Below are positions 3,197-57,843 of a DNA stretch of 64,000 nucleotides, one piece after another; the first letter of the stretch is position 1, and each line of letters opens with the position of its first letter. Source of the DNA: Melioribacteraceae bacterium (GTDB lineage Bacteria > Bacteroidota > Ignavibacteria > Ignavibacteriales > Melioribacteraceae); NCBI GenBank assembly GCA_026417375.1, contig JAOADJ010000037.1:62001-126000 (forward strand). Reading direction: 5' to 3'. The position numbers were made by a program, and so were the translations under genes. The notes under the pieces were generated by a model, which saw only the letters and a program-made list of their open reading frames with translations, had not been told where the DNA came from and searched no databases.

Positions 3197-3268
3197 TTAT
3201 TAGTCTTTCTAAATGTTTAACTGTTAAAACAAAGTTTATCTGTTAAATAGTTCTATATAAAAAAAGAA

Positions 3269-3304
3269 AAGCCACACTCGAATTGAATGTGGCTTAAAAA
3301 TTAA
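3269..3304 (-). terminator. Intrinsic terminator of the RND efflux operon
   Basis: An inverted repeat AAGCCACA (3269-3276) / TGTGGCTT (3288-3295) lies 22-49 bp past the RND stop codon. Read on the minus strand, the stem is followed by a T-rich run (complement of 3258-3268). It is the expected factor-independent terminator for the operon that ends at 3318. Confidence 0.75.
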
Positions 3305-3317
3305 TTGTCAGAAAAAA

Positions 3318-6482: not shown

Positions 6483-6495
6483 CTTTCAATTCCTT

Positions 6496-7557: not shown

Positions 7558-7575
7558 AAATGATTTCTCCAAAAT

Positions 7576-40314: not shown

Positions 40315-43203
40315 ATGAGAAAAAAAAATCAGTTGTACGTTTCAATTTTGCTAATACTTCTTACTTCTTTTCAACTAATTGCTAACTCCAACAGTTTTAG
40401 AGGAAAAATTATTGACAAAGTCTCTCGTGAAACCTTACCAGGGGCAAGTATATTTATTAAAAACACAAATATTGGTGTTATTAGCAATTTAAATGGTGAT
40501 TTCCAGTTTAATAATCTAAAAGACGGTACTTATTTTTTTACAGTTAGATATTTAGGATATAATGACAAAGAAGTTAAGATTGAGTTATCAAATAACAAGA
40601 CAATCAATCAAACAATAGAAATTGAACAAAATTTTATAGAAGGTGAAGAAGTAGTAGTATCTGCACAAGCAGAAGCACAAAAATCTGCAATCAACCAGCA
40701 GCTTAATTCGCTTTCGATAAAGAATATTGTTTCAGCTAAAAAAATACAAGAAGTACCCGATGCTAATGCAGCAGAAGCCATTGGTAGGTTACCCGGAATT
40801 TCGCTAGTGCGAAATGGTGGAGAAGGTAGCAAGGTTATAATTAGAGGATTATCTCCAAAATATAATTCTATTCAAGTTGAAGGTGTTAAGTTAGCTTCAA
40901 GTGGGGCAGAAGATAGAAGCACAGACTTGAGTATGGTTTCTCCTTTTATTCTTGAAGGCATTGAGGTAACCAAAGCTCAATTACCAGATAAAGAAGCTGA
41001 CGCAATGGGTGGCAGCGTTAATTTTATACTTAAAGAAGCTTCTAATAAAGACAAGTTTGAAATAATAACTCAAACCGGCTTTAACGGTTTACAAAATAAG
41101 TTAGGTGATTATAAATTTGTTTTAAGTGGAAGCAAAAGATTTTTTGAAAATAAATTGGGAGTTCTTGCATTAGTAGATTTGGAAAGGAGAAATAGAAGTT
41201 CAGATGAGTACAATGTAAATTATACTAATCTTACTTCACCAGAAAAACGCGAAGAAGTTGATATATCTATTGGAAATCTATACTTATTAAAAGCTAACAG
41301 AATTCTTAACAGATTCGGCGCATCTCTAGTTGTTGATTATAAATTTGAAAACAGTAAAATAAAGTTTACCAATTTTGTCGGTCAAAATGATAACAAAAAT
41401 GAAAAAAGAATAAATAATTTACGCCCATTTCTTGCTGATGTTTTTTATTCTATGGAGGATAGAAACAACAAGCTATTAACGCTTACTAATTCGTTAAGAT
41501 ATGAGCACAACATAGATAATCTTCATTTTGACTTGGGTGTTTTTTATTCCTTTTCAGAAAACTCTTCACCTCAAGAAGTAATTTTTCAAGGTTACGAGCC
41601 GAATGCATTTGATACAAAGACTATAAAATACCAAATCCACCCAGAAAAACTTTCAACATATTTAGTTAACAATCTTGATGATGCTTATTTATATGATATT
41701 AGCAATGAAAAAAACTACTCAAAAGAGAGGCAACTATCATTTGAATTTAATATTAAGTACAGTCTTGATTTAAGTGATGATATTATTATAAAACTTAAAA
41801 CTGGTATAATGCTCAAAAATCAATACAAAGTTTATAATAAAGATGTTAGATGGATGCCAATTTCTTGGGGCGGAGGTGTTCCATCGAATTCAATTAAAAT
41901 GATTTTACAAAATTACCCTTGGATGCAAGTTAAAACTCCAATCGGTGCCTCAAGAATTCCTTGGGCTTACTTTTTGGAAGATCCATCTAATAAGCAAAGT
42001 TTTCTCGATAATAAGTACAGCCTTAAAAATGTTCCTAAATTAAATATGGTAAGAGAAATTAATACTCTATTATCAAAAGAGCTTTTAACTAGCTATCATA
42101 GATCAATTAAAGATGACTATAACGGTAATGAAAATTATTATGCTGGATATATAATGAGTGAAATAAACTTAGGCACACTTATAAATTTAATACCTGGGTT
42201 TAGATTTGAAAACAACAAAACTGAATATCTTGGAATTCGAGGTAATGATCAAACATTATTAGAACATATAGGCTACTCACATAAAGATACTTTAACAAAT
42301 CGAAATGAATCTTTTTTACTTCCTATGATTCATTTAAGAATTAAACCAGCTAATTGGTTTGACATAAGATTAGCATATACTCAATCTCTTTCAAGGCCAA
42401 ACTACAATCATATAATTCCATCATGGAATATTGGGTTGAATATGGTTACCTGGAATAATCCAAATCTGAAAACTTCACTTTCAAAAAATTTTGATCTATA
42501 TACATCTTTTTATACAAACGAACTGGGATTATTAACTGTTGGAGGTTTTTATAAAGAAATAAAAGATTTGATTTTCTGGTCCGGGATTAGAGCTATAATC
42601 GATCCTAATTTATATGGCTTAACAAAGAATGAGTCCGGAAAAACGATTTCGACTATGGTAAATAATCCATATACCGCATTTGTAAGTGGAATTGAATTAG
42701 AATGGCAAACAAATTTTTGGTTTTTGCCTGGCTTACTTAAAGGCATTGTATTAAACACAAACTATACTAGAGTATTTTCTACTGCCAGGTATCCACGCAC
42801 AGAAATTAAAACTACTTATTTAATGCAACCACCGTGGGTAAAAACAGTAAATATAGATACATTTTACGTTGCTAGACTAATAGATCAACCAAATGATATT
42901 TTTAATATAACAGTAGGTTACGATTATAAAGATTTATCACTAAGATTATCATACTTATACCAAGATGATATTTTCAAGCGAGATAATTTTTATGAAAAAT
43001 TAAGAGGTAATTCAATCGCATATAAAAGGTTAGATTTTACTGTTAAGCAAAAATTACCAATAGAAGGGCTGGATCTATTTTTCAACTACAATAATATACT
43101 TAATGCTGTTGAAACAGATGTAGTAAACGGCAACGGATACCCATCAAGAGAGCAATACTATCTTTATACAATTGACTTAGGTATAAGATACAAATTTAAC
43201 TAA
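40315..43203 (+). CDS. TonB-dependent receptor (TIGR01782-like), second paralogue
   Basis: A 962-aa outer-membrane receptor with signal peptide (1-23), carboxypeptidase-regulatory-like domain (about 28-100), plug with P-D-A-N-A-A-E-A-I-G-R-L-P-G-I near 155 and a barrel ending in aromatic strands. It resembles the receptor at 19907 over the plug, but the barrel is clearly divergent, which suggests a different glycan. Followed 20 bp later by a T9SS beta-helix protein, as for the first receptor. No SusD gene is present. Likely ligand: rhamnogalacturonan oligosaccharides, by context. Confidence 0.9.
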   Translation: MRKKNQLYVSILLILLTSFQLIANSNSFRGKIIDKVSRETLPGASIFIKNTNIGVISNLNGDFQFNNLKDGTYFFTVRYLGYNDKEVKIELSNNKTINQTIEIEQNFIEGEEVVVSAQAEAQKSAINQQLNSLSIKNIVSAKKIQEVPDANAAEAIGRLPGISLVRNGGEGSKVIIRGLSPKYNSIQVEGVKLASSGAEDRSTDLSMVSPFILEGIEVTKAQLPDKEADAMGGSVNFILKEASNKDKFEIITQTGFNGLQNKLGDYKFVLSGSKRFFENKLGVLALVDLERRNRSSDEYNVNYTNLTSPEKREEVDISIGNLYLLKANRILNRFGASLVVDYKFENSKIKFTNFVGQNDNKNEKRINNLRPFLADVFYSMEDRNNKLLTLTNSLRYEHNIDNLHFDLGVFYSFSENSSPQEVIFQGYEPNAFDTKTIKYQIHPEKLSTYLVNNLDDAYLYDISNEKNYSKERQLSFEFNIKYSLDLSDDIIIKLKTGIMLKNQYKVYNKDVRWMPISWGGGVPSNSIKMILQNYPWMQVKTPIGASRIPWAYFLEDPSNKQSFLDNKYSLKNVPKLNMVREINTLLSKELLTSYHRSIKDDYNGNENYYAGYIMSEINLGTLINLIPGFRFENNKTEYLGIRGNDQTLLEHIGYSHKDTLTNRNESFLLPMIHLRIKPANWFDIRLAYTQSLSRPNYNHIIPSWNIGLNMVTWNNPNLKTSLSKNFDLYTSFYTNELGLLTVGGFYKEIKDLIFWSGIRAIIDPNLYGLTKNESGKTISTMVNNPYTAFVSGIELEWQTNFWFLPGLLKGIVLNTNYTRVFSTARYPRTEIKTTYLMQPPWVKTVNIDTFYVARLIDQPNDIFNITVGYDYKDLSLRLSYLYQDDIFKRDNFYEKLRGNSIAYKRLDFTVKQKLPIEGLDLFFNYNNILNAVETDVVNGNGYPSREQYYLYTIDLGIRYKFN

Positions 43204-43223
43204 CACTAAAAAGGAGAGTAACA

Positions 43224-44855
43224 ATGAAGAAATTTTTATTAATTCTATTTGTATTGTTTACCACTAAATTATATTATGCGCAAGCAGCCGATACTGTTCT
43301 TGTTCCTACAGTGTATAAGGGTTCTCCACTAGGCGCTATCAATAGATTTATTTTGGGCGATACTACAGCAGATGGAAAAAGAAAAAATGTTAATAGATTT
43401 TATAAACTGAAAAGAGATTCCATTTATTTTCTAAATGGTACTTTGACTGCAAAATTTCCTTTGCGAATAATTGCTGATAAGCCAACAGCTAGAAGTAAAC
43501 CTGCTATTATTGCACAAGGTGTTTTAGCAGATGGAAAAAGCTTAGTGGTATTTATACAATGTAATGATGACGGTTACTTTAGAAATATTTATTTCCAAAC
43601 AGCACAACCTACAGGCATAGGTGAATCTACAATTACTGTACAAGCGTTTAAAAATAATGGTGTTTATCAATTTGATGGTTGTTACTTTGAATGGGGACTT
43701 TTCTTAACAGTTGGAGTTTATGCAAAGGACACAAAATTAAAATTTGAAGACTGTTATGTTAGAAATGTTCAAAATACAACTTCAGTTTGGAATGGTAGAG
43801 GTATAAGTTTTCAAAACAACCCTGTTGATACTGTAATTATTAGAAATAATACCTTCTTTGATATGAATAGCTGGTTTTTGCAAGGTCAAACTGGCCCAAT
43901 TAAGTATGCACTAGTTGATCATAATACAATAGTCAACACTGTTAAATGGCCTATTCATTGGCAAAGAATAACAAATGCTGTTTTTAGTAATAATTTGTTT
44001 TACAATGTTCACAGTTATGGTGAAACAGCTGCTGACAAAGCAGGCCAAGATGTTGATGGGTTAAACTTTGGTATTTTTAATCTTTTCCCACTGGATGCCT
44101 CATTTACTATTAAAGAAGCTGATAGAAAAATTAAATTACATAATAACAACTGGTACTACTCAATAGTAATAAAGGATTACTGGAAAACCGAAAAACTCGA
44201 GAACAATCCTTTTATGAACACAAGAACACAAGATATGTTTACTAACAAAACAAAGTGGCCTCTACTTTCTGAAAAAAACACAACTAATTTAGACCCACTT
44301 TTTGATAATGAAGGTAACGGCGCATCACAGATGGTTGATTGGATGTTAAAAATGAGAGCTGCTTTACCAACTTCATGGTGGGGATGGGATCCAGATAAAG
44401 ATAGATTTGGTGTTCAGTGGCCATTACCAGAAAAATTAACCTATAAAAATACTACTTTATTGAAAGGTGCGGATGGTGGATTTCCGATTGGTGATTTAAA
44501 CTGGTACCCAGAAGAAAAAGCTAAATGGTTAAAATGGTTACTTACCTCTGTGGAAAAAGATGAAAGTATATTACCTACAGAGTTTGTATTAGCTCAAAAT
44601 TATCCAAATCCTTTTAACCCAGAAACAGTTATTTCATTTGCAATTCCTACTCATGGTAATGTATCACTCGAAGTTTATGATGTACTAGGCAGAAAAGTTT
44701 CAACATTAGTTAATGAAAAAATGACCCCTGGAAATTATAATGTTATATGGAATGGTAAAGATTATAATGGAAATTCTTTAGCATCGGGAGTTTATATTTA
44801 TAAGTTATCAACCGATAAATATTCTTTAACTAAAAAGATGATGCTCTTAAAGTAA
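43224..44855 (+). CDS. T9SS-secreted right-handed beta-helix protein, second paralogue
   Basis: A 543-aa exported protein: signal peptide (1-20), beta-helix region (about 75-260, with R-N-N-T-F-F and D-H-N-T-I turns), a linker with G-D-L-N-W-Y-P near 430 that matches the protein at 22936, and a T9SS sorting domain (about 454-543) starting N-Y-P-N-P-F-N-P. No clear catalytic signature. AAGGAG precedes the start. Surface glycan binding or pectate-lyase-like cleavage are the main possibilities. A perfect terminator follows 27 bp after the stop. Confidence 0.8.
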   Translation: MKKFLLILFVLFTTKLYYAQAADTVLVPTVYKGSPLGAINRFILGDTTADGKRKNVNRFYKLKRDSIYFLNGTLTAKFPLRIIADKPTARSKPAIIAQGVLADGKSLVVFIQCNDDGYFRNIYFQTAQPTGIGESTITVQAFKNNGVYQFDGCYFEWGLFLTVGVYAKDTKLKFEDCYVRNVQNTTSVWNGRGISFQNNPVDTVIIRNNTFFDMNSWFLQGQTGPIKYALVDHNTIVNTVKWPIHWQRITNAVFSNNLFYNVHSYGETAADKAGQDVDGLNFGIFNLFPLDASFTIKEADRKIKLHNNNWYYSIVIKDYWKTEKLENNPFMNTRTQDMFTNKTKWPLLSEKNTTNLDPLFDNEGNGASQMVDWMLKMRAALPTSWWGWDPDKDRFGVQWPLPEKLTYKNTTLLKGADGGFPIGDLNWYPEEKAKWLKWLLTSVEKDESILPTEFVLAQNYPNPFNPETVISFAIPTHGNVSLEVYDVLGRKVSTLVNEKMTPGNYNVIWNGKDYNGNSLASGVYIYKLSTDKYSLTKKMMLLK

Positions 44856-44882
44856 TATCTTTCGGTTCATAGTGCCTCCCAC

Positions 44883-44917
44883 GAATGAATGTAGTATTTT
44901 ACTACATTCATTCTTTT
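44883..44917 (+). terminator. Strong intrinsic terminator after the second receptor pair
   Basis: A perfect 14-bp stem, GAATGAATGTAGTA (44883-44896) / TACTACATTCATTC (44900-44913), with a TTT loop, is followed by TTTT. The frame at 44885 begins inside this stem, which argues against that ATG as the real start of the next gene. Confidence 0.85.
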
Positions 44918-44932
44918 AATATTTATTACTAT

Positions 44933-45841
44933 ATGAAAATGATAAAAATTATATTACTAATCACTTTACTTATGTCAATAAATCTGTTTGCAAAAAAGTA
45001 TAGACTTATATTTTTAGGTGGACAGTCAAATATGACGGGCTTTGGTCTAACTAATCAATTGCCCTCTGAATATTTAACCATTTGTAATTATGTTAAAGTT
45101 TTTTGCGGAACACCTAAAAACGATTGTGATAATTCTTTGTCTCTTGGAATTTGGGATAACTTAAAACCCGGATTTGGTGATGGATTTTATTTTAATGGTA
45201 AAAATTTTTACTCTGAAAAGTTTGGTCCCGAATTATCTTTTGGAAAAGAAATAAAAAAATTTTTTAATGATGGTATTGCAATAATTAAATATACTAAAAA
45301 TGGTGCTTCTATTCATTCAAATGCTGCAGGACAATTTGGCTGCTGGGAGCCAGATTTTGAAAAGTGCAATAAAATAAATCAATTTGACCATTTCCTGAAT
45401 GTTGTATATTCAGCTTTAAGTTTTGATGATATTGATTGTGATGCTGTTAAAGATACATTAATACCAACTGGAATTATTTGGATGCAAGGTGAAAGTGATG
45501 CAACTATTTCAGAAGAAATTGCTTTTAGTTATAAAGAAAATTTAACAAATCTAATTAATAAAATTAGAGAGGCTTTTAACAATAAAGATATACCAGTTGT
45601 TATCGGAAAAATAAGTGATTCTTTTAAAGGAAACAATGAAGAAAATAGAATTTGGAAGTTCGGTAAAATAATAATGCAACAACAAGAAGATTATGTTGCC
45701 CAAAATAAAAATGTTAGTATTGTTAGAACAACATCAAATTATGGTTATTCTGATAAATATCATTATGATACAAACGGTTATATTGATCTTGGTAAACAAT
45801 TTGCAAATGAATTAATTAAACTTATTAAAAATGAAAAATAA
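44933..45841 (+). CDS. SGNH carbohydrate acetylesterase (sialate O-acetylesterase/CE6-like)
   Basis: A 302-aa exported esterase. The signal peptide is followed by the Ser block G-G-Q-S-N-M near residue 28. The middle block is W-M-Q-G-E-S-D-A near 182, and the C-terminal D-x-x-H is in D-K-Y-H-Y-D near 278. This layout fits CE6/DUF303-type acetylesterases, here probably acting on acetylated pectin or side chains. I use the ATG at 44933; the ATG at 44885 lies in the terminator stem and would put charged and polar residues before the signal peptide. The 3' end overlaps the next gene by 11 bp. Confidence 0.85.
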   Translation: MKMIKIILLITLLMSINLFAKKYRLIFLGGQSNMTGFGLTNQLPSEYLTICNYVKVFCGTPKNDCDNSLSLGIWDNLKPGFGDGFYFNGKNFYSEKFGPELSFGKEIKKFFNDGIAIIKYTKNGASIHSNAAGQFGCWEPDFEKCNKINQFDHFLNVVYSALSFDDIDCDAVKDTLIPTGIIWMQGESDATISEEIAFSYKENLTNLINKIREAFNNKDIPVVIGKISDSFKGNNEENRIWKFGKIIMQQQEDYVAQNKNVSIVRTTSNYGYSDKYHYDTNGYIDLGKQFANELIKLIKNEK

Positions 45842-47165
45842 AAAATCACTTCTTTTAATTTATCTAGTATTCAATTATATCATTAATTCTCAAAATATTT
45901 ACCTTGATCCAATAAATGGTAAAGTAAATTTTTCTGGTAGCTTAAAATCACCACTCTCTTCACTTGAATTATCATTAAAAAAAATTAATTTAAATAAAGT
46001 GGATACAATTTTTTTGCTTAGTGGATTTCATGGTAATAACATTTTACTTAAAAAAAATAATTCAAAAAATATTGTGATAACTGCCTTTAAGGATTCTAAA
46101 CCAATTATATCAAATTTAGAAATTGAAGGAAGTAACATAGAAATTTCAAAAGTATATTTTTATCCGAATGGTTACGATATTTCTAAGTACTTACTACATA
46201 AAAATTTTGATAATGGGACTTTACTTTTAATAAATAAAAATTCAAATAATATTGTAATTAAAGATTCATATTTCTATTCAACTGAAAATTCTGATGATTG
46301 GGAACTTGCTGATTGGAGAAAAAATGTAGTAAGTGGTATTAATGATTTTGGTATCAATAATAAAGTTATAAATAATAAATTTTACAACATTGCATTCGCA
46401 ATAGAATTTGCGAACACTGCTAAATACTCTCAAGTTATAAATAATCATATAGAAAACTTTTCCGGTGATGGTATTAGAATTTCAAGTGCAGATAGTATTC
46501 TTGTAAAAGGAAATAAAATAATTAACTCGGTTGAACTTGATGAAGATCCAATAGTTGGAAATCATGAAGATGGAATACAAGCTTGGGTTTTACCAGATGA
46601 TGAAGATGGAATTCATGGATTAGTTGTTGATGGTAACTATATTCAAAATTATTCTAGCTTCAAAAAGTTTAAAGGAATTTTGCAAGGAATTGGTTTTTTC
46701 GATGGCCCATATCATAATTGCAAGTTTACAAATAATATTATTGTTGTTGAACATGCACACGGAATTGCTCTTTATGGAGCAGTCAACTGTGAAGTTTTAA
46801 ATAATACTGTATTTCCTTTCCCAAATACTTTTCCTTACAAACTTGGTCCACCTTGGATTATGATAACTTCAACTAAAAAAGGTTTTAAAAGTTTTGATAA
46901 TATAGTTGCTAATAACTTGACAACAGATTTAATAATGGAAAGTGAAAATAGCATTGTTAAAAATAACGTTGTTAATTGTGTAGCTTTTAAGTTAATAAAA
47001 GATTATGAAAAGTTCGATTTTTCACCAAAACCAAATTTTAAATATCAAGAAAAGAAAATCATAGATGCTGGTTCTAACGAATATTTCTCAGAATTTGATT
47101 TCAATGGAATTAAAAGAGAAAAGGATAAAGTAGATATTGGTGCAATTGAACTAATTGAAAAATGA
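45831..47165 (+). CDS. Exported beta-helix protein, no sorting domain (duplicate A)
   Basis: A 444-aa protein with signal peptide (about 1-20) and a right-handed parallel beta-helix across most of its length. It is clearly homologous to the next gene: shared blocks include F-S-G-D-G-I-R near 205, G-N-H-E-D-G-I-Q near 241, L-Q-G-I-G-F-F-D-G near 276, E-H-A-H-G-I-A-L-Y-G-A near 303 and L-G-P-P-W-I near 335. It lacks the C-terminal T9SS domain, so it may stay in the periplasm. The conserved acidic and His residues in the N-H-E-D-G-I-Q block look catalytic or metal-binding, but I cannot assign a lyase or hydrolase family. Confidence 0.75.
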   Translation: MKNKKSLLLIYLVFNYIINSQNIYLDPINGKVNFSGSLKSPLSSLELSLKKINLNKVDTIFLLSGFHGNNILLKKNNSKNIVITAFKDSKPIISNLEIEGSNIEISKVYFYPNGYDISKYLLHKNFDNGTLLLINKNSNNIVIKDSYFYSTENSDDWELADWRKNVVSGINDFGINNKVINNKFYNIAFAIEFANTAKYSQVINNHIENFSGDGIRISSADSILVKGNKIINSVELDEDPIVGNHEDGIQAWVLPDDEDGIHGLVVDGNYIQNYSSFKKFKGILQGIGFFDGPYHNCKFTNNIIVVEHAHGIALYGAVNCEVLNNTVFPFPNTFPYKLGPPWIMITSTKKGFKSFDNIVANNLTTDLIMESENSIVKNNVVNCVAFKLIKDYEKFDFSPKPNFKYQEKKIIDAGSNEYFSEFDFNGIKREKDKVDIGAIELIEK

Positions 47166-47168
47166 GTT

Positions 47169-48791
47169 ATGAAAAATTTTAATTTACTAATACTTCTTTT
47201 TGTTATTACTACTTCAATATTGCCTAAAAAAATTCACATTAATCCAAGTTCTGGAAATATTAATAATGATGGTTCAAAAGAAAAACCATTTAATACTCTA
47301 GCAGATGTAATGATTTATAAACATTCTTTAATACAATCTGGTGATACTTTAATTTTATATAACGGATTACACGGCGAAAATATTTTTATTAAAGGGAACT
47401 ATGATAAGCGTATAACTATCATATCAGAAAAAAATAATTTGCCCAAGATCAAAAATCTTTTAATTAATGCCACCAATGTTCTGATTAGAGGATTAGTAAT
47501 ATCACCCGAATTTTATAATTATCAAGGAAATCCTAAAACTGAATATGATAATGGAACAATAATTGAAATTTCTAAATCATCTAGTAATATAGAAATAGAT
47601 AGTTGTGAAATATTTTCTGTCAAAAAAAATTCATCATGGTCATTATCAGATTGGAGAAGAAAAGTTTGGAATGGTTTGTGGATTGAAGGGTTTAATGTGA
47701 AAGTAACACTTAATAAAATTTATAATGTTGCATATGCAATTCATACATTCGATAAGACAAATACAATAATTGAAAAAAATTTAATAGAAAACTTCTCTGG
47801 TGATGCAATTAGGTTAGTCGGAACGTTAAAAGCAAAAGTTCTAAACAACACAATAAAAAATTCAATCGAATTAGATGAAAACACTTCTGTTGGAAATCAT
47901 GAAGATGGAATTCAAGGTTGGAATGATAACGATAGTTTGTTGGTTTCCGGTAATCTTGTAATCAACGAAAGTAGAAGTAAAAATTTTGCTGGCTATTTGC
48001 AAGGTATAGTTTTTTTTGATGGTTCAATTAGCAATAGTAGATTTGAAAATAATATTGTTTTAACAGAACATTGGCACGGTATAACTTTATATGGTGCTTA
48101 TAACTGTCAAATAGTTAACAATACAGTATTTTCTTATCCATATGAAGAACCTTTTACTTATGGCCCACCATGGATCCAAATTAATCCTAAAAAAGATGGC
48201 ACAAAAAGTAACAACAATTTTGTGTACAACAATCTAACAACAAGGTTATCAATAAATTCTGACAATACTTTGGTTAAGAATAATGTTGGGGATAGATATG
48301 CATATGACTTTGTTAAAGATTATAAACAACTAAACATTAATCCAAAACCAAATTTTGAAAAATTAGGTGTTAAAATAATAGATGCTGGTATAACTGAATT
48401 AGCTCCTAAATATGATTACGCTGGTAAGCCAAGACCAATAGGTAATGGAATAGATATTGGTGCTATTGAATTAGATGAGTTAACAACTATAGGTCAGTTT
48501 AGAAATAATAAAGTAAACAATATTATTTTATCAACATTCCCAAATCCATTTAATAATACAACTAAAATAGCTTATATAATTCCGAAAGAAATATTTTATG
48601 ATAATTTAAAAATTAAAGTTACTATTTATGATGTTTTAGGAAATATAATTGAGGAAATAAAAGATGATATATTAAAAAACAATCAAGGTGAATTTTATTT
48701 TGATGCCAACAAATTAGCATCGGGAATATATTTTATAAATTTTTCATACAAAAACTTTAATACATCAAAAAAAATAGTGTTAATGAAATGA
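47169..48791 (+). CDS. T9SS-secreted beta-helix protein (duplicate B)
   Basis: A 540-aa exported beta-helix protein, homologous to the gene before it over about 440 residues: F-S-G-D-A-I-R, G-N-H-E-D-G-I-Q-G-W, E-H-W-H-G-I-T-L-Y-G-A and Y-G-P-P-W-I recur in order. A C-terminal T9SS sorting domain (about 454-540, F-P-N-P-F-N) is added, so this copy is surface-exposed or released. Likely a polysaccharide lyase or hydrolase of unknown family. It starts 3 bp after the previous stop and overlaps the next gene by 4 bp. Confidence 0.78.
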   Translation: MKNFNLLILLFVITTSILPKKIHINPSSGNINNDGSKEKPFNTLADVMIYKHSLIQSGDTLILYNGLHGENIFIKGNYDKRITIISEKNNLPKIKNLLINATNVLIRGLVISPEFYNYQGNPKTEYDNGTIIEISKSSSNIEIDSCEIFSVKKNSSWSLSDWRRKVWNGLWIEGFNVKVTLNKIYNVAYAIHTFDKTNTIIEKNLIENFSGDAIRLVGTLKAKVLNNTIKNSIELDENTSVGNHEDGIQGWNDNDSLLVSGNLVINESRSKNFAGYLQGIVFFDGSISNSRFENNIVLTEHWHGITLYGAYNCQIVNNTVFSYPYEEPFTYGPPWIQINPKKDGTKSNNNFVYNNLTTRLSINSDNTLVKNNVGDRYAYDFVKDYKQLNINPKPNFEKLGVKIIDAGITELAPKYDYAGKPRPIGNGIDIGAIELDELTTIGQFRNNKVNNIILSTFPNPFNNTTKIAYIIPKEIFYDNLKIKVTIYDVLGNIIEEIKDDILKNNQGEFYFDANKLASGIYFINFSYKNFNTSKKIVLMK

Positions 48792-50527
48792 TAAAAAAAA
48801 TAACATTAGTCTTATTTTCACTCATAATAGCAAACACCAACATTTCTTCTCAAAATATTCAGTTTTATTCAATCAAAAAGTTCAAACCATTGTTACCAAA
48901 ATCAATTAGTGATATTGAGTTTATAGATTTAGATAATGATGGTGATCCAGATGTAATGAAATATATTACAATTGATGGAGTGCATATTCAATGGATTGAT
49001 GATGATGATGATATGAAAATTACTGATGTTGAAGGTGATACAGATTCTGATTGTTTAATGATTGATAGAAATAAAGATGGTCTTTACGGTGCTTGGAATG
49101 ATCTAATAATAGATTTTAATGATGAAGATAAAGATGGAAAAGCTGATTTAGTTGGTTATTATGATTACTCTGATAAAGATGATAAAGGTTTATGGCAAGC
49201 TCATTATTGGTGGTTTATTGATTACGATAAGGATGGAATTTATAATTATGTTGATTGGAACAGCTTAGCTCTTGAAGGTTGGAAAATTAGCAAGACATCT
49301 AAATTCTATCCCGATTACAATGGGAATTCAACTTTTCTAAAAATTCATACAAATACTTTTAATATTGAGGACTTAAGATATAATTGGGAAAATCCATTTC
49401 ATTTTTACGACTTTGATAATGATGGTTTATCAGAAATGGTTATTCGATATATTGATGAACCAATACTTCTGAAAAACATTGATACAAATATTGAAACAAG
49501 AAGTGTAAAATTAACTGGTAAAATAAAAGATGTAAGAATTAGTGTTGATATTGATAATGATTCTAATCCAGATAATGAACTTGATTTTGATTTATCCTTA
49601 AGATTTATTGGCGATGGATTCGATTATTCTGATCAAGTTCAAAAATTCAAGTCATTGAAAGGAATTGCTGAAGCAAACAAATTTTTTATTGATGACAGAA
49701 TTAGAAAACTTGATGAACTAATATTTACAAGCAGAGAAAAAGCATATCCATTTATCTTTACAAGAGGAAAATGGGATCAAGTATGGTTTACTTTTGATGA
49801 AGATGATGATTGCAACAGATGGGAACGTGTTGAACTATATGAACCTAAAGATCCTTACCTAATTGGAGAACATAATGGTGGTATAGATAATAACCCTCAA
49901 GCTGATCCAGCTGGCGATAGAGGTGAATGGGATTTAGATTTTTCTGGTAAAGGACAATTATACATTTCAAGTATTGATAATAAAATACATTTATATGGTG
50001 CGGAAAAAGGTGCTTGGAGAATTGATTATGATGCAAAATATTTTCAGAATTGGGGCGGTTGGCGTGGTGGTAATAATCTTCAACCAACTATCAAACATTT
50101 AACTAATCCAGAAAATGCTCCACTTGTTTTATATCATGATAAAAACAATGATGGTTATTTTGATTATATAGAATTTGATTTTAACGGAGATAAAGTAATT
50201 GATGAAAATTACAGCTTTGATACAATTAAAATTAAAAATAATCTTATTGCTATTGATAAATTTATCTACTCAGATTTCAAAAAAATGTTTGTGGACTTAG
50301 CAAATAAAAATTGGAAGGATGCAATTGAATACTTAAAGTTTGCTAAGTCAATTGGAATAAACACAAACTGGGATGCATATTTCTTAGAAAGCAAATCAAT
50401 ATGGGAAAAGTATAATAATTCATACTGGTTGAAATTTTATCTATTCCAAGATTTGAAAAATTATGCTTTACTTAAGAATGATAAAGAACAACTAAAAAAA
50501 ATAATACACAAATATTTTACTAACTAA
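48788..50527 (+). CDS. Exported protein with many Asp-rich Ca-binding loops, unknown function
   Basis: A 579-aa protein I do not recognise as a named family. After the signal peptide (1-22) it has at least eight EF-hand/dockerin/FG-GAP-like loops: D-x-D-N-D-G-D-P-D at 47-55, then loops at 93-98, 112-117, 145-150, 208-213 and 254-262, and two near 450-470. Aromatic clusters lie between them (W-Q-A-H-Y-W-W near 136-142), and a helical tail spans about 490-579. Such loops bind Ca2+ in propeller or lyase folds, including PL11 rhamnogalacturonan lyase, though PL11 blocks are not evident. Its place between beta-helix genes and the GH78 gene suggests a polysaccharide-active or binding role. Confidence 0.7.
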   Translation: MIKKITLVLFSLIIANTNISSQNIQFYSIKKFKPLLPKSISDIEFIDLDNDGDPDVMKYITIDGVHIQWIDDDDDMKITDVEGDTDSDCLMIDRNKDGLYGAWNDLIIDFNDEDKDGKADLVGYYDYSDKDDKGLWQAHYWWFIDYDKDGIYNYVDWNSLALEGWKISKTSKFYPDYNGNSTFLKIHTNTFNIEDLRYNWENPFHFYDFDNDGLSEMVIRYIDEPILLKNIDTNIETRSVKLTGKIKDVRISVDIDNDSNPDNELDFDLSLRFIGDGFDYSDQVQKFKSLKGIAEANKFFIDDRIRKLDELIFTSREKAYPFIFTRGKWDQVWFTFDEDDDCNRWERVELYEPKDPYLIGEHNGGIDNNPQADPAGDRGEWDLDFSGKGQLYISSIDNKIHLYGAEKGAWRIDYDAKYFQNWGGWRGGNNLQPTIKHLTNPENAPLVLYHDKNNDGYFDYIEFDFNGDKVIDENYSFDTIKIKNNLIAIDKFIYSDFKKMFVDLANKNWKDAIEYLKFAKSIGINTNWDAYFLESKSIWEKYNNSYWLKFYLFQDLKNYALLKNDKEQLKKIIHKYFTN

Positions 50528-50529
50528 AT

Positions 50530-52956
50530 ATGAAAAAACTAATAATATTTCTTTTTGTTATTTATATAAACACGGTTGCTCAAGAAAGTGATGTTAAGAT
50601 TAATTATCAAGGAAAAGATTACACAAAATTAAAACATGCTTGGATTGCGCAATGGATAACACATCCAACAGAATCTACACTTGATTTTGGTGTATTTTTT
50701 TTTAGGAAAGATTTTCATTTAACAGAAGTGCCTCATGAATTTTTAATTTACACTTCTGCTGATAATAAATATAGATTATTTGTCAATGGAAATTATGTTG
50801 GCTTTGGTCCAGCAACTGGAGATATCAATAATTATTTCTATGATACGTATGATATCTCAAAATATTTACAAATTGGGAAAAATGTAATTGCAGTTGAAGT
50901 AATTAATTTTGGGGAATTTAGAAGAGCAGCGCAACAAACATTTCAAACAGCATTCATTCTTCAAAGTAAAGATACATCTTTAGCAAACCTCAATACTGGA
51001 CAAACAAATTGGAAGGTAACTAAGAATAATGCTTATTCATACATTCCATTCACACCAGATTCATTAAAAACATATTATGCAGCTGGTCCGGGTGAATTAA
51101 TTGATTACAAACATTTCCCATCAAATTGGAATCAAATAAATTATAATGATACAATTTGGCAAAATGCACGAAGAGCAACTGTTGAATTTGCTGTAGGCAA
51201 AGGTTTTCTTTACGGAAGCACTTGGTTTTTGGTTGAAAGAAATATTCCATATTTAAAAGAAGAAAAAGAATACTTTAAAAAATTTGTTTACAATAAAAAT
51301 GCTCTTGTTGATACAATTAATGTTGGTAAAAACATTGTAGTTAAAAAAAAATCAAATGCTACAATACTATTTGATATGACTTATCACACTACTGGCTATC
51401 CAGAATTGACTTTTCGAAATGGAGCTGGAAGCAAAATTAAAATAACATACTCAGAAGCATTATTCAAAAAGATAAACGAGAATGAAAAAGTAACAGATGG
51501 TAATCTATTATTCGTTGATTTAAAAGGGAACAGAAACGATTGTACCAATAAAGAAATATTTGGCTATTATGATATTTTATTCCCAGAAGGAAAAAATGAA
51601 TCCATTACTTTCAAACCTTTCGGCAAAAGAACTTTTCGCTTTGTTCAACTTGATATTCAAACGAAAGATGATGAATTAATTATAGAAGATTTTTACAATG
51701 TTTATACTGGATATCCTTACAAACAAGTAGCTGAATTTAAAACTAATGATGCGCTACTAAATAAAATTTGGGATGTATCATGGCTGACAATAAAAAATTC
51801 CTCTGATGATACTTTTATTGATCCATACTACGAACAACTTCAATACATTGGTGATACACGCATAGAAGCACTTGTTGCTAAATATATGACTGGCGATGAA
51901 GGTTTATTCAAAAAGGCACTTGAACAATTTGACCAATCGAGAATACCAGAAGGCTTAACACAAAGTAGATATCCTTCATACATCGTTCAAATAATTCCAA
52001 CCTATTCATTGATGTGGGTAAATATGTTGCATGATTATTTGTATTATGGCAATGAACCTTATTTTATTAAAAAGTTTTTACCCGGGATGAATTCAGTTTT
52101 AAATTGGTTTATTCAGAAAATTGATTCTACCGGATTACCAACAAATTTAACATGGTGGAATTTTACAGATTGGACAGATGGTTTCCCAAATGGAATTCCA
52201 CCCGGTGCAGATGATTCTTATTCAGCAAATGTTTCAATGCAATTATTATTAGCATTAAAAAATGCTACTGAAATTTCTAAGTACTTTAATGAACTTGACT
52301 CATTTAGAAAATATGAAAAGCTTTACAAGAAGTTAAAGAAAAAAATAAACGAAAAATTTTATGACAATAAAAAAAATCTTTTTGCTGAAACTATTGATGA
52401 AAACATCTATTCTCAGCATACAAATATATTTGCAATTCTTTCTGATGCGGTTGATAAGCCAAAACAAAAAGAGTTAATGAAAAAAATTCTGAATGATAAA
52501 TCATTAATTCAAGCAAGTATTTATTTCAGATTCTACCTTTTTAGAGCATTACAAAAAACAAAGAATGGAAATACATATACAACACTTTTACAACCATGGC
52601 AAAATATGATTTCACAAGGAATGACAACTTTTGGTGAAACAGATATTAATCCTCGTTCAGATTGCCATGCATGGAGTGCAAGTCCCGGATTTGATTTCTT
52701 GCATACAATAGTTGGTATTTATCCAACTAAAATTGGGTTTAACGAATTTAATATTGAACCAAATTTAGGCAATCTAAAATTTGTTGAAGCAAAATATCCA
52801 ATAAGAAATGAATTTATTTCTGTAAAGTATTCTAAAGAAAATTCTCAATTAAAGGTAATGATTGATATACCAAACAACATAACGGCTTCTTTTATCTATA
52901 AAAATAAAGTTTATAAAATTAAAAATGGCGTTAATGAATTGAACATAAAGTTATGA
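50530..52956 (+). CDS. GH78 alpha-L-rhamnosidase
   Basis: An 808-aa exported enzyme that removes terminal alpha-L-rhamnose, here probably from rhamnogalacturonan. Order: signal peptide, N-terminal beta-sandwich domains (about 30-390) with Y-T-S-A-D-N-K-Y-R-L-F-V-N-G, an (alpha/alpha)6 barrel (about 400-720) and a C-terminal beta domain. The active-site block D-P-Y-Y-E-Q-L-Q-Y-I-G-D-T-R near residue 433 matches GH78, and S-D-C-H-A-W-S-A-S-P supplies the later conserved His. It overlaps the GH2 gene by 4 bp. Confidence 0.92.
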   Translation: MKKLIIFLFVIYINTVAQESDVKINYQGKDYTKLKHAWIAQWITHPTESTLDFGVFFFRKDFHLTEVPHEFLIYTSADNKYRLFVNGNYVGFGPATGDINNYFYDTYDISKYLQIGKNVIAVEVINFGEFRRAAQQTFQTAFILQSKDTSLANLNTGQTNWKVTKNNAYSYIPFTPDSLKTYYAAGPGELIDYKHFPSNWNQINYNDTIWQNARRATVEFAVGKGFLYGSTWFLVERNIPYLKEEKEYFKKFVYNKNALVDTINVGKNIVVKKKSNATILFDMTYHTTGYPELTFRNGAGSKIKITYSEALFKKINENEKVTDGNLLFVDLKGNRNDCTNKEIFGYYDILFPEGKNESITFKPFGKRTFRFVQLDIQTKDDELIIEDFYNVYTGYPYKQVAEFKTNDALLNKIWDVSWLTIKNSSDDTFIDPYYEQLQYIGDTRIEALVAKYMTGDEGLFKKALEQFDQSRIPEGLTQSRYPSYIVQIIPTYSLMWVNMLHDYLYYGNEPYFIKKFLPGMNSVLNWFIQKIDSTGLPTNLTWWNFTDWTDGFPNGIPPGADDSYSANVSMQLLLALKNATEISKYFNELDSFRKYEKLYKKLKKKINEKFYDNKKNLFAETIDENIYSQHTNIFAILSDAVDKPKQKELMKKILNDKSLIQASIYFRFYLFRALQKTKNGNTYTTLLQPWQNMISQGMTTFGETDINPRSDCHAWSASPGFDFLHTIVGIYPTKIGFNEFNIEPNLGNLKFVEAKYPIRNEFISVKYSKENSQLKVMIDIPNNITASFIYKNKVYKIKNGVNELNIKL

Positions 52957-55277
52957 TAAAAAAAATCTTTTATATATCTGTCTTAATAATTCACTCATTA
53001 GTCTTTTCTCAAATTGGTGATACAATAAAACTTAATGGAATTGTAGATTTTCAACCAACATATAAATCTTTTCCACCAGAAAAATTTGAATATAAAATTA
53101 AAGTACCGGGATTAGTTGATTTCGCAGAACCAAAATTGCCTTTCTATGAGGAAATATTTAATGGCAAAAATAAACCGAGATATTATTGGTATAAATTTAA
53201 TTTTAACATAAGTAATTCTCTAAAAGGAAAGTTTTACTCATTAAAGATTTTAAAGAGTAGTTACTACACTCAAGTATATTTGAACGGTTTTGATTGCGGT
53301 ACTTATTTACAATCAACAACACCTATTGAAATTAATATAACAAAGTTTATTCGACTAAATGAAACAAATGAATTGTTAGTAAGAGTTGCTGATATTTCAT
53401 TTTTACCGAAAGAAGCAGCAACTGGTGTTGACAGAGAAAAAATTGCATACATTCCCGGTATTTGGGATGTTATCTTTATTAAAGTAACAAATGAAATTAA
53501 AATTAAAAATCAGATTGTTCTTCCATATCTCGAAAAGAAAAAATTAATAGTAAAATATTTGATAGAAAATCTGAGTGATAGGTTTGATAGAGATCTTGAA
53601 TTAACAAATACATTTTTTACTGTAAAATCAGAAATAAAAGAAAAAGGAAATACTTTATATTCATTTGAAGTAAAAAGCAAAATACAATCAACAAAAACTC
53701 AAGAACTACATAATGAAATTGATTTTGAAAATCTAAAATTATGGAATACAGTTACACCAAATTTATATTCGATTGAATCTAAAATTATTATTGATTCAGT
53801 TGAATTCAAGAATTATGGAAATCAAGAAATAAAAAGAACAGCATCATTTCAACCCTATTTAAGTGATGTGGATGTAAAAAGATTTGGAATAAGAGAATTT
53901 AAATCAAAAGAAAATTATTTCACTTTAAATAGTAAAAGAATTTTTTTGACTGGTTCAACAATTACACTTAATAGATTCTTGGAAGATAAAGAGAGAGCAG
54001 ATTTACCTTGGAATAAAGAATGGGTAAAAAAATTAATTATTGATTTACCTAAAAAATTTGGATGGAACACATTAAGAATTAGTCTTGGATTGCTTCCAGA
54101 CTTTTGGTATGATCTCGCTGATGAATATGGAATCTTACTTCAAAATGAATATCCAATGTGGAATTTACGTGGCGAAAATTCAGAACTAAAAAAAGAATTC
54201 ACTAATTGGATTTGGAACGATGCAAATCATCCATCAATAGTAATTTGGGATGCGCTAAATGAAAATGTCAATGATTTTATTGTGAAAGAATTAATACCAG
54301 AACTTAAAAAAATTGATAACACAAGAATTTGGGATGCTGGCTGGACTGGCTTTGATGGCAAACTTAATCTTGAAATGAAAGAAATTCATTGGTATTCGCT
54401 CGGTCATGGTTGGTGGGTTAATGATAATTATGTTACTACTCAAAGAAACAAATATAGATTTGGGTCGCTACAAAATAATTATAATTTACTTGATGAATAT
54501 AAAAACTCCACTATTCCATTGCTATTAAATGAATATGGTTGGTTTTGGCAAAATAGAGAAGGAACTCGTTCAGCCATTAGAACTTATGGAGAATTTAGAA
54601 CAGATGATGTAATTCCATTTACAAAAAATTATGAATATTTTGAAATGGATGGTACACAATTATATTCTTACAGAGATATTTATGATTATTACTTAGGTCA
54701 AAATGCATCTAAAGAAGAAAGAGAAAATTTTCAATCATACATACTTAACATTGAAACTGAATTCCTACGTGCTAGTAAATATTTTGCTGGTGTTTTATCA
54801 TTTAGTTATTTATCTAATAATAATGGTTACACTGGTGATTGGTTTGAATCAGAAATAACAAAACTAATACCCAAAGAACCACTATTTGCCCAAGCAAATT
54901 CCATGAGACCATTTGCTACTTTTATTGATCTTGAAGATGGTCGTTACTTAAAAAATCCAGTTTTTTATAAACCGAAAGAAAAAATTAAAATTAACCTTAT
55001 TGCAGTAAATGATACTGATTCGTTAAAAAGTGGTAACGTTAAAATTTCATTAATTAACACGCAAAATAAAATAGTTAATCAAAAATCTTTTAATATTATA
55101 TTGACTGAATTTGAAAGGAAACAAACACTTTTCGAAATAGCTTTGCCAGATTATGAAGATAATTTTTTAGTTAAAAGCGAATTATATAATAAAGAATATA
55201 AAACTACACAAGTAAGTATAAGATATATTCGTGCTTCAAATAAAAATATCTTTCCTAAATTTGTATTCGGTAAATAA
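52953..55277 (+). CDS. GH2 family glycoside hydrolase
   Basis: A 774-aa exported protein with the GH2 layout: a sugar-binding jelly roll (about 25-180, with Y-L-N-G-F-D-C-G), an Ig-like domain (about 180-300) and a TIM barrel (about 300-600). The acid/base Glu is in W-D-A-L-N-E-N near residue 433, and the nucleophile Glu probably in L-L-N-E-Y-G-W near 527. A further C-terminal beta domain follows. GH2 covers beta-galactosidase, beta-glucuronidase and others; pectin side-chain galactose or glucuronate fits the context, but specificity is not visible. Overlaps GH78 by 4 bp. Confidence 0.85.
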   Translation: MIKKIFYISVLIIHSLVFSQIGDTIKLNGIVDFQPTYKSFPPEKFEYKIKVPGLVDFAEPKLPFYEEIFNGKNKPRYYWYKFNFNISNSLKGKFYSLKILKSSYYTQVYLNGFDCGTYLQSTTPIEINITKFIRLNETNELLVRVADISFLPKEAATGVDREKIAYIPGIWDVIFIKVTNEIKIKNQIVLPYLEKKKLIVKYLIENLSDRFDRDLELTNTFFTVKSEIKEKGNTLYSFEVKSKIQSTKTQELHNEIDFENLKLWNTVTPNLYSIESKIIIDSVEFKNYGNQEIKRTASFQPYLSDVDVKRFGIREFKSKENYFTLNSKRIFLTGSTITLNRFLEDKERADLPWNKEWVKKLIIDLPKKFGWNTLRISLGLLPDFWYDLADEYGILLQNEYPMWNLRGENSELKKEFTNWIWNDANHPSIVIWDALNENVNDFIVKELIPELKKIDNTRIWDAGWTGFDGKLNLEMKEIHWYSLGHGWWVNDNYVTTQRNKYRFGSLQNNYNLLDEYKNSTIPLLLNEYGWFWQNREGTRSAIRTYGEFRTDDVIPFTKNYEYFEMDGTQLYSYRDIYDYYLGQNASKEERENFQSYILNIETEFLRASKYFAGVLSFSYLSNNNGYTGDWFESEITKLIPKEPLFAQANSMRPFATFIDLEDGRYLKNPVFYKPKEKIKINLIAVNDTDSLKSGNVKISLINTQNKIVNQKSFNIILTEFERKQTLFEIALPDYEDNFLVKSELYNKEYKTTQVSIRYIRASNKNIFPKFVFGK

Positions 55278-55297
55278 AATATTACCTGAGAAATAAA

Positions 55298-56209
55298 ATG
55301 AAAATTGCAATTCTTACAATAATTGTTGTTTGTATCTCGTCTTATAATATTTACTCGCAATATCAAATATTAAAATTATGGGAAAGTAAAATTCCATATC
55401 AAAACAAAATCGAAGATGAAGTTTATGAACCAAACAACATCAAAATAATTGCAAAAGTTAATGTGCCCTCAATAGAAATCTTTTCACCATCCGAAAGAAG
55501 TTCGAACAAAAAAGCTGTTATAATTTGTCCTGGTGGCGGTTATAAAGTTCTTGCTTATGACTGGGAAGGAATTGATGTTGCAAGATGGCTTTCTTCTAAT
55601 GGATACACTGCAATTGTATTGAAATACAGATTGCCCGATTCTACAACTATGAATAAAAAAGAATTTGTTCCACTTATTGATTTGCAAAGAGCAGTAAGGT
55701 TAGTAAGAGCTAATGCAGACAAATGGAAAATCGATAAAAATAAAATTGGTATAATGGGTTTTTCTGCTGGAGGTCATCTCGTTTCAACTTTTGGAACTCG
55801 ATATGGAAATAGCTTTCATGAAAAGGTTGATTCAATTGACTTTGTTGATGACAAACCAAATTTTATGATTCTTGCATATCCAGTTGTTACATTCAAAGAA
55901 GAATTTACACACAAAGGATCAAGAAAGTTTTTAATCGGAAATCGGCCATCAACTGAAATGGTAAAATATTTTTCTAATGAACTTTATGTAAGCGAAAAAA
56001 CACCACCAACTTTCATTTTTCATGCTCAAGATGATAAATCAGTTCCAGCAGAAAATTCTATTTTGTTTTATGAAGCATTAACTAAAAATAAAATAAAAGC
56101 AGAACTGCACATTTTTGAAGAAGGTGGACATGGGTTTTCACTTGCAAACAGCGCTACTTCATTAAAAAAGTGGCTTGAAATTTTATTAAATTGGCTTGAA
56201 AAATTTTAA
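55298..56209 (+). CDS. Exported alpha/beta-hydrolase esterase (acetylesterase-like)
   Basis: A 303-aa protein with signal peptide (about 1-20) and an alpha/beta-hydrolase fold of the BD-FAE/acetylxylan-esterase type. The oxyanion motif is P-G-G-G-Y near residue 79, the Ser nucleophile is in G-F-S-A-G-G-H near 154, an Asp is in H-A-Q-D-D-K-S-V-P near 248 and the His in E-G-G-H-G-F-S near 282. It probably deacetylates pectic oligosaccharides before uptake. Nine bp separate it from kduI. Confidence 0.85.
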   Translation: MKIAILTIIVVCISSYNIYSQYQILKLWESKIPYQNKIEDEVYEPNNIKIIAKVNVPSIEIFSPSERSSNKKAVIICPGGGYKVLAYDWEGIDVARWLSSNGYTAIVLKYRLPDSTTMNKKEFVPLIDLQRAVRLVRANADKWKIDKNKIGIMGFSAGGHLVSTFGTRYGNSFHEKVDSIDFVDDKPNFMILAYPVVTFKEEFTHKGSRKFLIGNRPSTEMVKYFSNELYVSEKTPPTFIFHAQDDKSVPAENSILFYEALTKNKIKAELHIFEEGGHGFSLANSATSLKKWLEILLNWLEKF

Positions 56210-56218
56210 GAGGTTTGT

Positions 56219-57052
56219 ATGCAAGTTCGTTATTCACCAGATCCACATGGATTTAAAAAATTATCAACTGATGAATTGAGAAAATCTTTTCTCATAGAAA
56301 ATTTATTTCAGATTAATGAAATACCAATGGTTTATTCTGATGTTGACCGTTCAATAACAGGAAGTGCTGTTCCGGTTGGGAAATCATTAAAACTTACTGC
56401 TACTAAAAAGGAAATGGCTGCAGAATATTTTTGTGAAAGAAGAGAACTTGGAATTATTAACATCGGGAAAAATGGTTTTGTTGTTGTTGATGGAAAAGAA
56501 TATCAAATGAACTTCAAAGATGCTTTATATATCGGAAAAGGTTCAAAAGAAATTGAATTTAAAAGTGAAGATGATAATAATCCTGCTCAGTTTTACTTTG
56601 TAAGTTATCCGGCACATAAAGAATTCCCAATTCAACATGTAAAATATGAAGATGCAATTCATCGTCATCTCGGTTCAGTTGAAACATCAAACAAAAGAAC
56701 AATTCATCAATATATTTTGCCAGAAAAATTTCCAACCTGTCAATTAGTAATGGGATTAACAGAACTTGAAGATGGGAGTGTTTGGAATACAATGCCACCA
56801 CATACACATCAACGAAGAAGCGAAGTTTATATGTATTTCAACTTAAAACCAGAAGCATTTGTAGTTCATTTGATGGGTGAAGCTCAAGAAACAAGACACA
56901 TCATAATTCGTGATCGGCAAGCTGTGCTTTCAACAAGTTGGTCTATGCATGCTGGTTGTGGAACTGAAAGCTATTCATTCATTTGGGCAATGGGGGGTGA
57001 AAATCAGGTGTTTGATGATATGGATGCTATCTCTATGAAAGATTTGAAATAA
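56219..57052 (+). CDS. kduI: 5-dehydro-4-deoxy-D-glucuronate isomerase
   Basis: A 277-aa zinc cupin that converts 5-keto-4-deoxyuronate (DKI) to 2,5-diketo-3-deoxygluconate (DKII), the first step for unsaturated galacturonate. Near-identical length to E. coli KduI. The zinc ligands are in P-P-H-T-H-Q-R-R-S-E-V-Y (two His and a Glu, about 194-202) and M-H-A-G-C-G-T (His near 244). The N-terminus R-Y-S-P-D-P and the C-terminal Q-V-F-D-D-M-D are also family-typical. It forms a three-gene set with kduD and kdgK. Confidence 0.96.
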   Translation: MQVRYSPDPHGFKKLSTDELRKSFLIENLFQINEIPMVYSDVDRSITGSAVPVGKSLKLTATKKEMAAEYFCERRELGIINIGKNGFVVVDGKEYQMNFKDALYIGKGSKEIEFKSEDDNNPAQFYFVSYPAHKEFPIQHVKYEDAIHRHLGSVETSNKRTIHQYILPEKFPTCQLVMGLTELEDGSVWNTMPPHTHQRRSEVYMYFNLKPEAFVVHLMGEAQETRHIIIRDRQAVLSTSWSMHAGCGTESYSFIWAMGGENQVFDDMDAISMKDLK

Positions 57053-57063
57053 ATGGAGGTTAA

Positions 57064-57828
57064 ATGATTTTAGATAAATTTAGTTTAAAAGGAAAAACAG
57101 CAATTGTTACCGGTGCTAATAAAGGTATTGGGCAATACTATGCAAAAGCTTTAGCTGAAGCAGGAGCAGATATTATTATAAGCGCATCATACGAACAGGA
57201 TTTTTCAGAAACAGAAAAAATTATTAATGATGCTGGCAGCAAATTTAAAGGTTATGTGTGCGATTTTTCTGATAGGAAAGATCTTTACAATTTTATTGAA
57301 CAAGTAAAAAAAGATTTTTCCAAAGTTGATATTCTTGTTAATAATGCCGGCACTATTTTACGTAAACCAATAGCTGAACACCCAGATGAATATTGGGATA
57401 AAGTAATTGAAGTTAATCTATCAGCTCAGTTTATTTTAACCCGAGAGTTTGGAAAAGAAATGGTTGAACGTGGTTATGGAAAAATTGTTTTCATTGCATC
57501 TTTACTTTCTTTTCAAGGTGGAATTTTAGTTCCTGGTTATGCAGCAAGTAAAGGTGGAATAAAACAATTAACAATGGCTTTTGCAAATGAATGGGCAAGT
57601 AAAGGTGTAACTGTAAATGCAATTGCTCCGGGTTATATTGCAACAGATAATACTAAAGCACTACGGGAAGATCCTGTTAGAAATAAAGCTATTCTTGATA
57701 GAATTCCTCAAGGCAGATGGGGAACTCCCGAAGATTTAATGGGAACTGTAGTTTTTCTTTGCAGTGATGCTTCTAATTATTTAAACGGAAGTGTTGTAAC
57801 CGTTGATGGCGGTTGGATGGGTCGTTAA
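57064..57828 (+). CDS. kduD: 2-dehydro-3-deoxy-D-gluconate 5-dehydrogenase
   Basis: A 254-aa SDR that reduces DKII to 2-keto-3-deoxygluconate. NAD site T-G-A-N-K-G-I-G near residue 19, N-N-A-G near 94, and catalytic Ser and Tyr-Lys in I-A-S-L-L-S and Y-A-A-S-K-G-G-I. The C-terminal V-D-G-G-W-M-G-R is the usual KduD ending. GGAGG precedes the start. It lies 11 bp after kduI and 15 bp before kdgK. Confidence 0.94.
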   Translation: MILDKFSLKGKTAIVTGANKGIGQYYAKALAEAGADIIISASYEQDFSETEKIINDAGSKFKGYVCDFSDRKDLYNFIEQVKKDFSKVDILVNNAGTILRKPIAEHPDEYWDKVIEVNLSAQFILTREFGKEMVERGYGKIVFIASLLSFQGGILVPGYAASKGGIKQLTMAFANEWASKGVTVNAIAPGYIATDNTKALREDPVRNKAILDRIPQGRWGTPEDLMGTVVFLCSDASNYLNGSVVTVDGGWMGR

Positions 57829-57843
57829 TCAATAGGAGATAAA

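Follow-up and report, generated by a model that had tools for sequence, protein, structure and literature searches.

The 64,000-nt stretch analyzed here (the window) belongs to the genome of a Melioribacteraceae bacterium (contig JAOADJ010000037.1) and contains, at positions 48788–50527 of its forward strand, an open reading frame (ORF) for a 579-aa protein, P0001, that starts with ATG and is uninterrupted by stop codons. An initial annotation had described the product as an exported calcium-loop protein of a rhamnogalacturonan cluster, possibly a new polysaccharide lyase or a binding protein. Its gene model and junctions held up: the preceding beta-helix gene runs to 48791 and overlaps the start of the P0001 gene by 4 bp, and a GH78-type gene begins at 50530 after a 2-bp gap. 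The protein is strongly acidic (isoelectric point 4.6) and comprises 80 Asp, 19 Trp, 35 Tyr and 37 Phe residues. Consistent with the proposed export, its N terminus is a hydrophobic Sec-type stretch, in which a pattern scan detected no lipobox. The features assigned to P0001 are as follows.

48788–50527, + strand: P0001, exported 579-aa calcium-loop protein and founding query of its family (ORF and translation; relatives found)
48788–48853, + strand: putative Sec signal peptide, approximately residues 1–22, no lipobox (hydrophobic stretch and lipobox scan; predicted cleavage site)
48926–48952, + strand: Ca loop 1, residues 47–55 (DLDNDGDPD), exact Dx[DN]xDG; D47, D51, G52 and P54 common to core and distant family members
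48998–49039, + strand: Asp-rich loop, residues 71–84, degenerate motif (motif scan and conservation)
49064–49081, + strand: Ca loop, residues 93–98 (DRNKDG), exact motif
49121–49147, + strand: Ca loop, residues 112–120 (DEDKDGKAD), exact motif
49220–49237, + strand: Ca loop, residues 145–150 (DYDKDG), exact motif
49409–49435, + strand: Ca loop, residues 208–216 (DFDNDGLSE), exact motif within the signature WENPFxFYDxDxDGxSE, among the most conserved stretches
49547–49561, + strand: degenerate Ca loop, residues 254–258 (DIDND) (motif scan and conservation)
49796–49810, + strand: degenerate Ca loop, residues 337–341 (DEDDD) (motif scan and conservation)
49817–49825, + strand: R344-W345-E346, invariant in 44/44 core and 6/6 distant members and not part of any Ca motif; candidate active-site residues with a putative catalytic role
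49919–49990, + strand: R378, E380, Y392 and H401, candidate active-site patch including the degenerate loop 382–387 (conservation and predicted strands; putative role)
50138–50164, + strand: Ca loop, residues 451–459 (DKNNDGYFD), exact motif
50177–50191, + strand: degenerate Ca loop, residues 464–468 (DFNGD) (motif scan and conservation)
50267–50521, + strand: C-terminal helical part, residues ~494–578 (AlphaFold2 model, DSSP)

Six exact Dx[DN]xDG motifs, beginning at residues 47, 93, 112, 145, 208 and 451, distinguish P0001 from its shuffled versions, which contained a mean of 0.134 and reached six in 0/10000 shuffles. Degenerate Asp-rich loops lie at five further positions (residues 71, 254, 337, 382 and 464). 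The count of at least eight such loops given previously therefore stands with the degenerate ones included, while exact motifs are fewer. In the N-terminal part, the motifs are spaced 19–24 residues apart. According to PMC3123361, the Dx[DN]xDG motif binds calcium in many unrelated proteins, for example in the blades of the polysaccharide lyase family 11 (PL11) enzyme YesW. From their sequence, the P0001 loops are likewise predicted to bind calcium.

P0001 gave no match to NCBIfam models at expectation values (E) up to 10 and none to PDB sequences with phmmer. Among all Pfam models searched at E up to 1, the sole match was to FG-GAP_3 (residues 31–56), with a score below the gathering cutoff (20.8 versus 26.9 bits); this trace was present in 5/18 aligned family members at E up to 0.1. 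A profile of the 18-member alignment yielded chance-level matches only when run against PDB, and a literature search retrieved no description of a family like that of P0001. The family is unnamed in Pfam, NCBIfam and PDB sequences, and the earlier failure to place the protein thus holds for these libraries, including the profile search. PL11 membership was tried and rejected, with no Pfam match of P0001 at E up to 1. The domain PF18370 (RGI_lyase), an N-terminal PL11 domain whose model is in the Pfam library, had no match anywhere in the host genome. As a further candidate relative, the ulvan dehydratase P29_PDnc was set aside because its paper predicts such enzymes to fall with PL37 (PMC8511951).

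The P0001 family is real. Relatives occurred in 2/296 genomes of a phylum-wide draw, including P0001's own genome, and a species-genome collection contributed 16 family loci from Bacteroidota, Planctomycetota and Acidobacteriota. Profile searches detected the family in 2/295, 5/248, 24/140, 6/241 and 2/26 genomes from groups selected in the surroundings of known carriers, the carriers themselves being counted, along with three weak matches (E ~1e-4 to 7e-4; G665, G918 and G1062) that lie outside the set of 50 loci used below. This set, which takes in some but not all of the members found, spans the same three phyla. It omits L002, a duplicate of the L109 gene, L112, which coincides with L018, and L086, whose family frame was missing from the ORF calls. 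Contig ends truncate members L017, L014, L015 and L085. No P0001 relatives were found in the viral contigs, phages and plasmids searched. Because of the low genome tallies, we regard the family as rare and patchy, yet it recurs in glycan-utilization loci directed at complex sugars of plants and algae. A tree of the 50 members separated 44 core from 6 distant sequences, with P0001 as the first branch within the core under midpoint rooting, which served for drawing only.

Thirty-four alignment columns, numbered on P0001, are common to the core (at least 97%) and distant members (6/6). They comprise D47, D51, G52, P54, D71, D88, D93, D105, D145, G179, F183, E201, P203, F204, D208, D212, E216, R220, D268, W329, E338, R344, W345, E346, R378, E380, Y392, D397, H401, D413, D451, G456, D459 and D464. 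Many of these are loop Asp residues. Outside the calcium motifs, R220, R344, W345, E346, R378, Y392 and H401 are present in 44/44 core members and E380 in 43/44, and all eight positions are kept in 6/6 distant members. R378, E380, Y392 and H401 are located on successive strands predicted by the AlphaFold2 model. Active sites usually show such conservation and binding proteins seldom do, and the conserved Arg/Glu/Tyr/His set is read here as a candidate active site.

Structure prediction, proposed as a check in the initial annotation, provided two AlphaFold models on a shallow alignment of 18 rows. The AlphaFold2 model of P0001 had a predicted local distance difference test (pLDDT) score of 78.6 and a predicted template modeling (pTM) score of 0.80, and a second model of the trimmed member L004, based on the same relatives, had values of 79.6 and 0.78. 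Foldseek returned no PDB match at E < 0.001 for either model and, for the full-length model, no match at this threshold among BFVD viral models. With VIA-align, the top Z score of 6.6 was obtained with OspA-type sheets (root-mean-square deviation 6.5 with 218 aligned and 8.1 with 204 aligned residues), followed by porins, MORN and shell proteins; Z scores up to 6.6 are within the range of unrelated models. Among the VIA-align matches listed there was no PL11 or other lyase entry, which still leaves such a fold possible. Most motif loops are placed between consecutive strands in both models, and since the first motifs are 19–24 residues apart, hairpins suit them better than propeller blades. 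P0001 may have a new fold. The PL11 propeller analogy drawn earlier is unsupported, given a genome lacking the PL11 domain, models resembling a single-layer sheet and N-terminal motifs ~20 residues apart.

The gene is part of an operon (40315–58878) that encodes, according to Pfam, a TonB receptor, beta-helix proteins, a SASA esterase, P0001, GH78, GH2, BD-FAE, KduI, an SDR dehydrogenase and a PfkB kinase. Pfam bears out the beta-helix genes previously noted upstream and the GH78-type and GH2-type genes downstream, and the tie to glycan degradation is supported, in a cluster that includes KduI, SDR dehydrogenase and PfkB kinase genes.

40315–43203, + strand: TonB-dependent receptor of the operon (Pfam)
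45831–48791, + strand: two beta-helix genes directly upstream of P0001 (45831–47165 and 47169–48791), the second with a type IX secretion system (T9SS) sorting tail (Pfam)
50530–52956, + strand: GH78-type alpha-L-rhamnosidase (Pfam; PDB rhamnosidases 2okx and 3cih)
52953–55277, + strand: GH2-type glycosidase (Pfam)
56219–58878, + strand: KduI-like isomerase, SDR dehydrogenase and PfkB kinase (Pfam)

KduI, SDR dehydrogenase and PfkB constitute the usual route for unsaturated uronates produced by lyases; some lyase is therefore expected, for which the beta-helix proteins and P0001 are alike candidates. The first half of the window is pectin-type, with Pfam matches to GH28, pectinesterase, a GH88/BD-FAE fusion, UxaC, UxaE and DUF4861. 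The fusion, a BD-FAE-type esterase joined to a GH88/GH105-type domain (13279–15339), is the genome's only GH88-family match among the matches listed. Two T9SS-tailed proteins (22936–24618, with no further Pfam domain, and 43224–44855) are each encoded immediately behind a TonB receptor, where SusD is situated in other loci.

SusD-like genes were present in 25/50 and SusC-like genes in 23/50 family loci, making the P0001 family a recurrent component of SusC/SusD-type utilization loci with glycan enzymes. Pfam scans of 64 neighbor proteins, selected from the full set of neighbors, identified PL8, PL14, heparinase-II/III, BNR_4, GH2, GH3, GH29, GH31, GH43, GH88, GH92, GH95, GH106, GH141-like proteins, sulfatases and esterases. 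Three neighbors contained BNR_4: one was PL25-like, one lacked a good PDB match and one was close to Bacteroides 5mvh/5muk, presumably the GH145 group, and matched rhamnose-glucuronate lyases less well. Because the neighboring enzymes vary between loci, a single substrate for the whole family was rejected, and a rhamnogalacturonan-specific role and lyase chemistry are at most possibilities. The original limitation to rhamnogalacturonan thus finds no backing, as relatives stand beside GH29, GH95, GH92, GH3, GH43, PL8, PL14, heparinase-II/III-like and sulfatase genes. A constant lyase partner was also considered and is not strongly tied to the family, with heparinase-II/III genes within 10 kb in 1/28 and GH88-family genes in at least 4/28 family loci of 23 genomes (counted by eye).

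In the Bacteroidales locus L009, two 1250-aa proteins (1183–4929 and 5063–8833), encoded at the second and third gene positions upstream of the family gene, are ~30% identical to the beta-helix pair of the window. Directly downstream of the family gene, a 650–740-aa protein is encoded in L013 (11675–13903), L084 (5902–7872) and L085 (6933–9011), with no Pfam match in the two scanned copies (L013 and L084). Directly upstream, L101 (6961–8781) and L102 (10969–12789) encode a PL14-like protein with PKD, malectin and a T9SS tail, as assigned by Pfam on the L101 copy.

DUF4861 (PF16153) is fused C-terminally to the family domain in 6/50 members (L018, L084, L087, L110, L111 and L113), and a DUF4861 profile built here recovered the same fusion proteins. 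L017, cut at a contig end, is nearly identical to L018 over their common part. As L084 belongs to the core and the other five fusions to the distant clade, the fusion is seen at two separate places in the tree. A stand-alone DUF4861 gene is located in the window at 26520–27755, next to MFS transporter and UxaC/UxaE genes; its product had no PDB match, and a literature search found no paper on DUF4861.

A lipobox pattern was found in 0/50 members, although several rows (for example, L006, L014 and L085), in which the sequence starts from the edge of a contig or the reading frame is over-extended, are uninformative. None of the 18 family members scanned with Pfam carried a T9SS sorting tail, in contrast to the beta-helix protein encoded next to P0001. 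The absence of both signals points to the periplasm, and P0001 would accordingly be placed there in a Bacteroidota-like cell on the strength of its sequence features. Surface glycan-binding proteins usually have a lipobox and a slot next to SusD. In the P0001 family, the gene directly follows a SusD-like gene on the same strand in 3/24 loci having such a SusD, which, together with the lacking lipobox, weighs against a surface binding protein.

Our preferred reading, to which we assign about an even chance, is that P0001 acts as a soluble enzyme in the periplasm and belongs to an undescribed glycan-degrading family; its enzyme activity, fold and periplasmic location are what we infer from the data above. 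The chain would form a curved, largely single-layer beta-sheet, with calcium-binding Asp loops as strand connections, followed by the helical C-terminal part, and calcium would most likely stabilize this fold. An acidic or deoxysugar-containing oligosaccharide may be imported through the TonB/SusC porin and reach P0001, where R220, R344, E346, R378, E380, Y392 and H401 would bind and cleave it, alongside the GH78 and GH2 enzymes. The chemistry could be either elimination, as in a lyase, or hydrolysis. Several points weigh against such an enzyme. In the libraries searched, no known enzyme was homologous to P0001, whether by sequence or by fold. The R344–E346 region has low model confidence, with residues 346–349 below a pLDDT of 50, and the charged residues that do not vary may instead have a structural role or ligate calcium. 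The low counts of heparinase-II/III and GH88-family genes near the family also count here, as do the very different adjoining enzyme sets, which imply no single substrate.

Compared with the initial proposal of a polysaccharide lyase or binding protein, the unplaced, exported and glycan-linked calcium-loop protein stands, and a rhamnogalacturonan lyase is one option among several. Binding is the weaker of these two options because of the 0/50 lipobox count and the invariant Arg/Glu/Tyr/His set. A non-catalytic, calcium-dependent glycan-binding or scaffold protein, holding imported oligosaccharides or aiding neighboring enzymes, nevertheless deserves consideration and seems to us rather unlikely. 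P0001 is rich in aromatic residues, its models match no known catalytic fold, its varied enzyme partners are as expected of a helper, and the fungal Psathyrella velutina lectin is listed among calcium-motif proteins in PMC3123361. These points are set against an Arg/Glu/Tyr/His set that does not vary among the 44 core and 6 distant members, and against the missing lipobox and the position next to SusD in only 3/24 loci, unlike surface glycan-binding proteins.

We consider it unlikely that P0001 is a calcium-dependent lyase acting on the rhamnogalacturonan backbone, PL11-like in action without being a PL11 member. The pectin-type window with KduI, SDR, PfkB and GH78 and the host genome lacking a PL11 domain would fit this role, as would the calcium motifs and calcium dependence of PL11 enzymes described in PMC8787155 and PMC3123361. 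However, the two adjoining beta-helix genes are equally good lyase candidates, relatives reside in fucose, sulfate and other glycan loci, the models do not resemble a propeller and the location of P0001 looks periplasmic rather than extracellular. An integrin-like FG-GAP calcium-blade propeller, mis-folded by AlphaFold, is very improbable. It could account for the below-cutoff FG-GAP_3 match in 5/18 members, the modeling alignment was shallow, and calcium-blade propellers may give only weak FG-GAP matches, as indicated in PMC3123361; yet two models from different queries, with pTM values of 0.80 and 0.78, agree on sheet-like matches, and the short N-terminal motif spacing leaves too little room for four-stranded blades.

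If P0001 is the periplasmic enzyme that we favor, the family may, as a more tentative extension that we regard as possible at best, represent a new class of carbohydrate-active enzymes. This class would combine an undescribed single-layer sheet bearing calcium-loop turns with an Arg/Glu/Tyr/His active site, operate in the periplasm of several phyla on a variety of acidic or deoxysugar glycans and, in those members that are fused to DUF4861, work as a two-step enzyme. The breakdown of complex acidic glycans requires many enzymes, and several steps lack an assigned one. The P0001 family, whose ~580-aa proteins have a fixed set of polar residues, recurs in glycan-utilization loci of no fewer than three phyla; absent from Pfam and NCBIfam, it makes a concrete candidate for such an orphan step.

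Among known systems, PL11 enzymes of the YesW type share with P0001 the Dx[DN]xDG motifs and the character, predicted for P0001, of a secreted, all-beta, carbohydrate-active protein, and the window of P0001 is of the matching pectin type. P0001 differs from them in lacking a Pfam sequence match and a PL11 domain in its genome, and in a predicted fold and motif spacing that appear unlike those of an eight-bladed propeller. FG-GAP/integrin-type calcium-blade proteins have similar Asp-rich loops, to which the trace at residues 31–56 corresponds, but this trace remains below cutoff, is confined to 5/18 members and accompanies conserved residues far beyond the loops. The surface glycan-binding proteins of SusC/SusD loci occupy the same kind of gene cluster, whereas the P0001 family is without lipobox, rarely follows SusD directly and has a strong invariant polar set. 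DUF4861 is a distinct domain of unknown function that is absent from P0001 itself; being fused to P0001 relatives and encoded as a separate gene in the P0001 window, it is a domain to which the P0001 family offers a lead.

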